Origin: Amoebophrya sp. AT5.2
Taxonomy: Eukaryota; Sar; Dinophyceae; Syndiniales; Amoebophryaceae
Direction of reading: 5' to 3'
DNA: 25,328 nt
Assembly: GCA_005223375.1 (NCBI GenBank)
Contig: RXOD01004250.1
Span: 1-25,328 of the forward strand
Both the position numbers and the translations under genes were made by a program. The notes beneath the pieces were generated by a model that was not told the DNA's origin, did not search any database, and saw nothing but the letters and a program-made list of their open reading frames with translations. Below, piece by piece: positions 20,601 through 21,927 of this stretch. The first letter of the stretch is position 1; each line of letters opens with the position of its first letter.

Positions 20601-21927
20601 TAGCTCCCGAGCAGATGGCCTGAGAAAGCAGCATCAATCGAGATGCGATCACAACCTATGGATCCACCGATCGCGAGAGCAAGTACGTCTACGTACACGT
20701 CGAAGGTGAAAACTCAAGAACTATTCCGAACAATACAACAATTACCCAGCATGTCCCCGAAGGGACTTCTCTCCAGGAAGTCGTTGAGCACGAAGTGGTT
20801 TACGAGTTCGATGGCGTACTTTCTGCAGACCTTGGGCGCCTCCATCCGGCCGTAGTCGATCGCCGTGGGCAGCAGTTTCTCGCTGCAGAACTGCAGGAAC
20901 TGCTTCTGCTGGTCCGGCAGTTCCACGTCCGGAACGCCGCCCATGGGCGCGGCGGTGAAGCCGGCGACGCCGCCCTGCTGCTCCTTCACGAAGGTCTTCA
21001 TCGCGTCGCAGGCGTCCTCGCAGATCTTGCTCAGGCAGGAGAAACTGCCGTCCAGCCGCTCGAAGTCGCTCGGGTTCGGGTTCGTGCTCGAGGTCGCGCT
21101 GCTGGTGCCCACGCGCAGGCCGGTGGTGAGAATCCCGATCGCGTCGAAGTTGTTCGGGAGGTGCGTCTTCTGGATGATGAACGTGAGCACGTTCCCGGAC
21201 GTCTCCCGTTAGAGGTTGAAAAAATCCAGGTCGTGCTTCAGGTTTAGGTTTAGCCGATATCGGAACCCCCCTCCTCGGATCACCTATGACCGTCGCCCAG
21301 CGATAGCCGGCTGCTAGGGCTCCATCACGCCGCACTTGGTCCCGTTGCGAATAAGTAAACCGACACCAAGCAATAGCAGAGCGCTCCCTGGCACTGGCTT
21401 CCTATGTCAGTGCGGTATGCTGGGCGATGGGAACCAAACCCAAGAAGCCGCAGCCTCCTCGGCGGGGGCCATACCCTACGATTGCGCTAGACTCAGATCT
21501 AAACCTCAACCCTGTTGGTGTTGATCCCCCATGATCCCAGCTGAAGGGGAGAGCTACAGCAAGGAGAAGCACTCTCAGCAAACCTAACCCTGGACCTGGA
21601 CCTGAATTTATTCAACCCTTAATCCCGGATCACGCGCGAGGGGTCGCGCACCGTCTCCACGAGCTGGTCGCGAACCGTGCGGATGTGCTGCGGATTCAGC
21701 GTCGAGATGTCGCGCGACCGGAAAAACTGCTTCAGCACCAGCCCAGCGCGCTGGCGAAGCTGCTCCTCGCGGGCCTTGTCCTGAAACACGTAGATGAGGT
21801 AGAGCAGCAGATCGGGGTGCTGGTTCAATTGCTGGAACCGCTCCGCCACCTGCCGCTGCGCCTCATTGCTCGGCGTGTTGGCGAGGGTCAGCGTCTCCAC
21901 GACGGAGGCAAGAACCTGCTCGTCCAT
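17676..21927 (-). CDS. TNPO1: Transportin-1 / karyopherin beta-2 nuclear import receptor, 8 exons
   Basis: A HEAT-repeat importin that carries PY-NLS cargo through nuclear pores and releases it on RanGTP binding. Exons: 21927-21623, 21203-20746, 20619-20229, 20075-19865, 19735-19605, 19462-19056, 18864-18543 and 18333-17676. They sum to 2883 bp = 960 aa plus stop (human about 890-898). Landmarks: QLNQHPD near the N terminus, LSKICEDA, KIRIEACDFW, NMKYAEAD...QDIEPRFH, RSISCW...SRYGYWV, ILDRSKRVQEAACSAFATL, ALDLLSG and NNAGWAVGE. The Trp residues in SISCW and AGWAVGE correspond to the two PY-NLS-contacting Trp of human transportin. Six introns are G|GTA...AG|G (126-209 bp). Intron 1 is a transposon-like element without GT-AG ends. 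The ATG at 21927 matches the human start region (MDEQ against PDEQ). Confidence 0.95.
21209..21622. mobile_element. Introner-like non-autonomous DNA transposon forming transportin intron 1
   Basis: This 414-bp segment starts TTAGAGGTTGAAAAAATCCA on the plus strand and ends with the reverse complement of TTAAGGGTTGAATAAATTCA; the first 24 bases of the two ends match at 20 positions (TTARRGGTTGAAWAAATYCA...). Subterminal AGGTTTAGGTTTAG (left) and its counterpart AGGGTTAGGTTTG (right, reversed) extend the similarity to about 45 bp. It is flanked by the direct repeat TCCCG at 21204-21208 and 21623-21627, a 5-bp target-site duplication. Removing the element plus one TSD copy (419 bp) gives ATC CGG GAG ACG, i.e. 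IRETSGNVLTFI against human IRATVGILITTI. No position within the repeat gives GT...AG. It encodes no transposase. An alternative GA...AG splice (21624-21203) would lose one residue in frame. Confidence 0.88.

Follow-up and report, generated by a model that had tools for sequence, protein, structure and literature searches.

What is the segment that interrupts the first coding exon of a transportin gene in Amoebophrya sp. AT5.2, and how might the gene be read through it? The gene lies on the minus strand, as fixed by homology, of the window, i.e., the whole 25,328-nucleotide stretch of DNA that was analyzed. A first-pass annotation had described the first intron of this gene as a DNA transposon, and its observation of an element with terminal inverted repeats (TIRs) and a target site duplication (TSD) is confirmed. 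The segment is a 414-bp non-autonomous TIR element and putative introner (21209..21622, minus strand), with boundaries common to a family of copies detected by genome matches. In gene sense it reads from 21622 down to 21209, with the ends TTAAGGGTTGAATAAA ... TTTTTTCAACCTCTAA. The TIR at the gene-sense 5′ end (21599..21622, minus strand), TTAAGGGTTGAATAAATTCAGGTC, is identical to the other TIR at 20 of the terminal 24 bp, with weaker similarity up to about 45 bp, just as the annotation had reported, and it is apparent in the sequence logo of 48 copies. The TIR at the gene-sense 3′ end (21209..21232, minus strand) contains a TTTTTTC tract and a CCTCTAA end and falls in the block that is best conserved across the family. 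Inside the exon, the element is flanked by a perfect repeat of 5 bp, TCCCG on the plus strand, with one copy adjoining the gene-sense 5′ end (21623..21627; CGGGA in gene sense) and the other the gene-sense 3′ end (21204..21208).

Exact excision of the element with one TSD copy would join exon 1 (21623..21927, minus strand; ATG at 21927), which then ends in the TSD, to exon 2 (20746..21203, minus strand). The joined transportin aligned without a gap at the junction with transportin-1 (PDB), as anticipated by the annotation, according to which this removal restores a conserved coding frame. In the window copy, no TSD register out of six corresponds to GT-AG, GC-AG, GA-AG or AT-AC, in contrast to intron 2 (20620..20745, minus strand), which is canonical (G/GTAATT...CTCAG/G). 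Stop codons are present in all three frames within the first 15 nt of the element's gene-sense 5′ end, and thus little of this end can be retained; among 48 copies, the 27% that have an A at position 13 lack the stop in frame 0. The sense RNA of the window copy, the only copy folded, is predicted to form a long hairpin (z = -3.33 relative to 100 shuffles), whose outer stem closes exactly at TTA/TAA, leaving both CGGGA copies side by side and unpaired.

The public gene model treats this site differently. The best transportin match was the EukProt model g2746.t1 (98% over the whole query), followed by proteins of Amoebophrya A120 (59%) and A25 (61%). All 959 of 959 amino acids of g2746.t1 could be rebuilt from the window with seven introns, indicating that this model annotates the AT5.2 genome. 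Six of these introns have the form GTA...CAG, in agreement with the earlier description of the other transportin introns as canonical (the script considered only GT, GC or GA donors and AG acceptors). Intron 1 of the model (21203..21633, minus strand; gcgc/GTGATC...CGGGAG/acg), with a GTG donor and a GAG acceptor, comprises the element together with 11 nt on its upstream and 6 nt on its downstream side. Because it is wider than the element, the model lacks four conserved residues, VIRE, precisely at the element. Four residues at this site are kept in all eight other aligned sequences that cover it (10 of 54 matches were aligned), i.e., those of A25, A120, Prorocentrum, Chromera, Gregarina and three unnamed ones; one fragment stops short of the site.

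A second EukProt model, g5760.t1 for DNA polymerase theta, has one extra N at the introner junction (MPNNVPQ instead of MPNVPQ), which corresponds to the nearest GT-AG option. Both models seen (2/2) would fit a gene prediction restricted to GT-AG, and judging from the genomic sequence the public annotation apparently hides the element behind nearby GT-AG ends. The transportin gene thus offers a concrete case of a GT-AG gene model hiding a probable introner, in which conserved residues vanish or, as in the polymerase, residues appear exactly at the element. If the GT-AG introns of g2746.t1 and g5760.t1 are supported by RNA, however, they contradict exact excision. For mitochondrial ribosomal protein S15, another gene with such an insertion, no model of the g2746.t1 or g5760.t1 style was present among the 33 matches listed, and A25 was likewise absent there. 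As a side observation, these small indels (loss of VIRE in g2746.t1, P0001; gain of N in g5760.t1, P0088) lie exactly at introner junctions, and the AT5.2 protein set may hold further artefacts of this kind.

The annotation would have been undermined by the absence of any other TIR/TSD copy in the genome, and many copies were found. Matching the window element against its own genome gave 43 matches (40 of 154 candidates were scored). Genome-wide, 411 sites match the terminus pattern TTARRGGTTGAAWAAA with no more than one mismatch, compared with 10 for the reversed control, implying roughly 200 copies of the family. Inspection of 80 loci, whose GC content is 55.92%, yielded 59 copies with both ends. 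Among these, 49 have a TSD with at most one mismatch over 5 bp, including 37 with a perfect TSD; the ten paired copies left out of later counts were nine with poorer TSDs and L049, which reaches a contig end. In the 57 paired copies with enough flanking sequence, the 5-bp direct repeat is perfect in 36 and has at most one mismatch in 48, whereas at six shifted control positions it was perfect in 0 of 57 and within one mismatch in at most 1 of 57. The direct repeat thus exceeds chance expectation. It is 5 bp and no longer, as the sixth base matches in only 4/36 copies on the left and 6/36 on the right.

The two ends of the family (TTAAGG... and ...CTCTAA) are consistently unlike each other, with TTAAGG at one end and TTAGAGG, read inwards, at the other. 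The first and last 16 nt are near-invariant in 48 copies, the same termini having been used to pick them, and the last 50 nt in gene sense form the most conserved part of the family. Pairwise identity between copies has a median of 67%. The median length of 393 bp is too short for a transposase gene, and the family has the features of miniature inverted-repeat transposable elements (MITEs), i.e., TIRs, a TSD, multiple copies and a short, gene-free body. The autonomous relative with a transposase called for by the annotation was sought through two transposase families, and neither MULE (PF10551) nor hAT (PF05699) domains were found; the hAT control gave no match either. Analysis of the flanks of 48 copies revealed a partly palindromic preference at the target, CC-N5-GG, compatible with targeting by a transposase. 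Separately, position -8 carries a one-sided A in 58% of the 48 copies, compared with 17% for the mirror T, and this A could be a target or a splicing signal. A motif-free scan for TIRs with TSDs over 274 kb gave nine matches compared with one in the control: seven belonged to this family, one was the element of another family at L042, described below, and one was a short pair in L068.

The unlike ends make it possible to orient each copy without reference to the gene. Copies were oriented by the difference between TTAAGG and TTAGAGG alone, and the coding strand was determined afterwards. The length of open reading frames (ORFs) proved a noisy test of orientation due to long antisense frames in this GC-rich genome: with no margin, 8 of 48 copies, that of the window included, had their longest ORF on the opposite strand. 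With a margin of at least 1.3-fold, the TTAAGG-first strand prevailed in 19/19 copies at a minimum of 1200 nt, in 24/25 at 900 nt and in 31/33 at 600 nt, the only clear exceptions at the last threshold being L009 and L046. We therefore adopted codon scoring, with codon usage trained on window genes only, for 47 of 49 copies, L046 and L061 being left out for their short flanks. The TTAAGG-first strand scored better in 47/47 copies, including 32/32 clear-cut cases; this turned L009 around, while L046 was too short for scoring. Both flanks were coding on the TTAAGG-first strand in 28 copies, and in 28/28 the frames agreed after removal of the element and 5 bp; no copy had both flanks coding on the opposite strand. 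L021 and L063, dropped for poor TSDs and thus outside the codon-scored set, have their longest ORF on the other strand.

Coding-like flanks were found for 79% of the 47 family copies, compared with 29% of 400 random window stretches and 33% of nine copies of two related families (p = 0.0003 relative to the main family). The insertions into coding exons fall in all three phases, with 12, 7 and 10 of 29 in phases 0, 1 and 2, respectively. A fixed orientation of this kind provides a genome-only argument for RNA removal by a strand-reading process.

We generated 42 joined proteins by removing the element and one TSD, and 13 of them were given to homology searches. Like transportin, the joined ClC protein (L012), compared with H+/Cl- exchange transporter 3, the DNA polymerase theta helicase (L022) and mitochondrial S15 (L070), compared with ribosomal S15, were gap-free at the junction. 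A joined cation channel had one weak stretch gap-free at the junction and another with a one-residue gap four residues before it. A Pfam domain extended across the junction in five of 10 proteins (Ion_trans, Vps53_N, Band_7, Ribosomal_S15 and BT1); two others had a domain elsewhere and three had none. Similar insertions are thus present in the transportin, ClC, polymerase theta, S15, channel, Vps53, Band_7 and BT1 genes, and these insertions at non-homologous positions are putative introns. A test of the joining register by ORF length favored register 0 in 30 of 49 copies, +1 in 11 and -1 in 4, with 4 ties; it is the weaker test, being subject to the same ORF-length noise.

We then asked of each border whether known splice sites could account for it. 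No GT-AG pair was found in any TSD register of the 37 perfect-TSD copies, extending to the family what the annotation had noted at this locus and arguing against canonical U2 GT-AG borders at the TSD; 34 of the 37 have no GC-AG, GA-AG or AT-AC register either. The GA...AG pair that the annotation had put forward can be rejected as a general border, with only 1/37 copies having it in the TSD register. GT at position +7 of the element (TTAAGG/GT) failed as a general donor since an in-frame TAA would be kept in phase 2 insertions (10/29, among them the window copy), and the first downstream AG failed as an acceptor since its offsets are spread over the three classes modulo 3 (20, 14 and 12), giving no common rule. 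Searches for spliceosomal snRNAs identified U6 in the genome and gave no match for U1 or U2; as U2 was also missed and no control genome matched, they are uninformative on U1.

Taken together, these data support the annotation's interpretation. We consider it likely that the window segment is a copy of a non-autonomous TIR transposon family working as a polar introner, which RNA processing would take out at or close to the TSDs without GT-AG; the exact splice junction is a prediction. After insertion into a coding exon, the sense transcript would pair the two TIRs into a hairpin, which would bring the two TSD copies together. The element and 5 nt would then leave the RNA as an intron whose borders lie at or close to the TSD and are not GT-AG, and the original frame would be restored. 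The annotation's repeat-guided mechanism, in a purely symmetric form, leaves the fixed orientation unexplained. Given that orientation, the asymmetric ends must provide the process with strand-specific signals, for which TTAAGG on the 5′ side and CTAAACCTAAACC, the T-tract and CCTCTAA on the 3′ side would be the candidates. A spliceosome tolerant of odd borders would fit, whereas excision at the DNA level or a purely symmetric hairpin would not, and copies inserted the wrong way in coding DNA would be harmful and lost.

A bolder and more tentative version, which we hold to be possible though we would not wager on it, is that GT and AG are dispensed with entirely and the element's asymmetric ends stand in for them, the TIR hairpin and the polar motifs defining the intron and the cut falling within the TSD whatever its sequence. 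If true, a whole class of introns would do without U1-type donor recognition, and within one and the same genome a slight difference in one TIR (TTAAGG versus TTAGAG) would part an intron-competent family from a plain MITE family.

The most serious competitor, which we regard as unlikely, also makes the element an intron but has the spliceosome borrow GT and AG from the exon or TSD, with a few codons gained or lost. The EukProt models do so for transportin (minus VIRE) and polymerase theta (plus one N), and borrowed splice sites are known for introners described in PMC9860276. The 3′ end of the element resembles an intron 3′ end (T-tract, CTAA), a likeness that would explain the orientation too. 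A GT-AG pair altering at most 15 nt is open to 22/37 copies, compared with 43% of random placements, and one altering at most 6 nt to 11/37, compared with 21%; yet the median cost of the nearest pair, 15 nt versus 20.5 nt at random, is not significantly lower (p = 0.10). When codon gain or loss was allowed, a stop-free, in-frame pair within 45 nt was available to 33/37 copies, compared with 87% of random placements, leaving 4/37 without one, about the random rate (13%). The form GTA...YAG, which is that of the six other transportin introns, is open in frame within 45 nt to only 2/37 copies, compared with 10% at random. Borrowing would also cost S15 18 conserved-core residues around FDTNSPAVRIA, a stretch identical in A120, and transportin the VIRE residues kept in the eight other sequences covering that site among the 10 of 54 matches aligned.

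Three other alternatives carry less weight. That the copies are not removed at all and disrupt their genes, as pseudogenes or polymorphic or harmful insertions, could be reconciled with the many perfect TSDs, which may mean recent insertion, but neither the single orientation in 47/47 scored copies nor the coding enrichment would be expected, the flanking frames are open and conserved in basic genes, and the copies have diverged from one another; we judge it quite improbable. We give still less credence to the idea that the fixed orientation is a property of insertion, e.g., through transcription-coupled targeting, rather than of selection for splicing. No TIR transposon is known to follow gene orientation so strictly, and a sister family whose ends are of a similar type shows no enrichment in coding DNA (8 copies, compared for coding context). 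Excision from DNA, in the manner of ciliate internal eliminated sequences, would account for the TIRs, the TSD and the restored frame but has no cause to track gene orientation, and yet every scored copy faces the same way as its gene; dinoflagellates, moreover, are not known to have a dual nucleus, and we find this reading barely credible.

The same genome contains related families that differ at their ends. When TTARR ends bordered by 5-bp TSDs were sought, two matches lay beyond the main family; with seven other motifs there were none. One related family has symmetric TIRs (L042:2035-2490, with TTAGAGACCCAAAGGTGCGTACTT at both ends, and L081-L087); its eight copies, with TTAGAG at both ends, have a perfect 5-bp TSD in 7/8 cases and are not concentrated in coding DNA. 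A third family is represented by a 555-bp element (L048:258-812) with asymmetric ends, TTAAGTGG and TTAGAGGG, and the TSD AGTGT. When its flanks are joined, the TTAAG-first strand has the best score, as in the main family, although the right flank alone is not coding-like. With asymmetric and symmetric sister families side by side, the end motifs that make an intron of a transposon become open to testing.

Introner elements with RNA-seq support have been described in Amoebophrya A25 and A120 (Farhat et al. 2021, PMC7789003), and the annotation's link to such elements in this genus was apt, as the host here is an Amoebophrya. As described there, those elements share with the present family inverted repeats of 8-20 nt at both ends and direct repeats of 3-5 nt at the borders; they are repeated introns with non-GT-AG ends, as is predicted for the copies in AT5.2. 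The A25 repeat motif, given in that description as TTA followed by two purines ... G, is matched here by TTAAGG and TTAGAGG. The most frequent direct repeats of A25 share bases with the 5′ end of the inverted repeat, whereas the 5-bp TSD of AT5.2 abuts it. The passages of PMC7789003 consulted here do not mention which way the elements face with respect to their gene, a feature that is constant among the scored copies of AT5.2. According to Table 1 of that paper, 99.98% of AT5 introns are GT-AG, a figure repeated in a review (PMC11453091), and the GC content is 55.92 for AT5, 47.8 for A25 and 51.2 for A120. On the basis of this GT-AG figure, strange intronic elements were suggested to be confined to a subset of the genus by DeMontigny and Bachvaroff (2025, PMC12005148), in a text that also puts a K. 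veneficum strain at about 65% AT. Among the matches listed in a literature search covering mainly open-access papers, none described introners in AT5 or a constant orientation of introners lacking GT-AG. The class is therefore already known, from A25 and A120, as the annotation had surmised, and the family, its polarity and its presence in this genome appear to be new. Transposon-made, probably non-GT-AG introns would thereby extend to a third Amoebophrya lineage.

Introners derived from DNA transposons have also been described in Symbiodinium microadriaticum, Florenciella and Aureococcus, among others (Gozashti et al. 2022, PMC9860276). Both these and the AT5.2 elements are non-autonomous and have TIRs and/or TSDs, and the AT5.2 elements would likewise create introns in exons; according to that account, however, the others carry or borrow recognizable splice sites, in contrast to the 37 copies examined here, with GT-AG in no TSD register. 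TIRs, TSDs, a length of hundreds of base pairs and a high copy number are common to MITEs, but the AT5.2 family, unlike these, is concentrated in coding exons in one orientation and is apparently removed from RNA. Bacterial IStrons, which combine an insertion sequence with a group I intron, are likewise mobile elements made harmless by RNA removal, self-splicing through the group I ribozyme being the IStron feature (PMC4227781).

Finally, the subterminal repeats GGTTTAGGTTTAG and CTAAACCTAAACC of the window copy (21209-21255 and 21578-21622) resemble telomere repeats of the TTTAGGG type, and could just as well be motifs similar to a branch point in the sense RNA.
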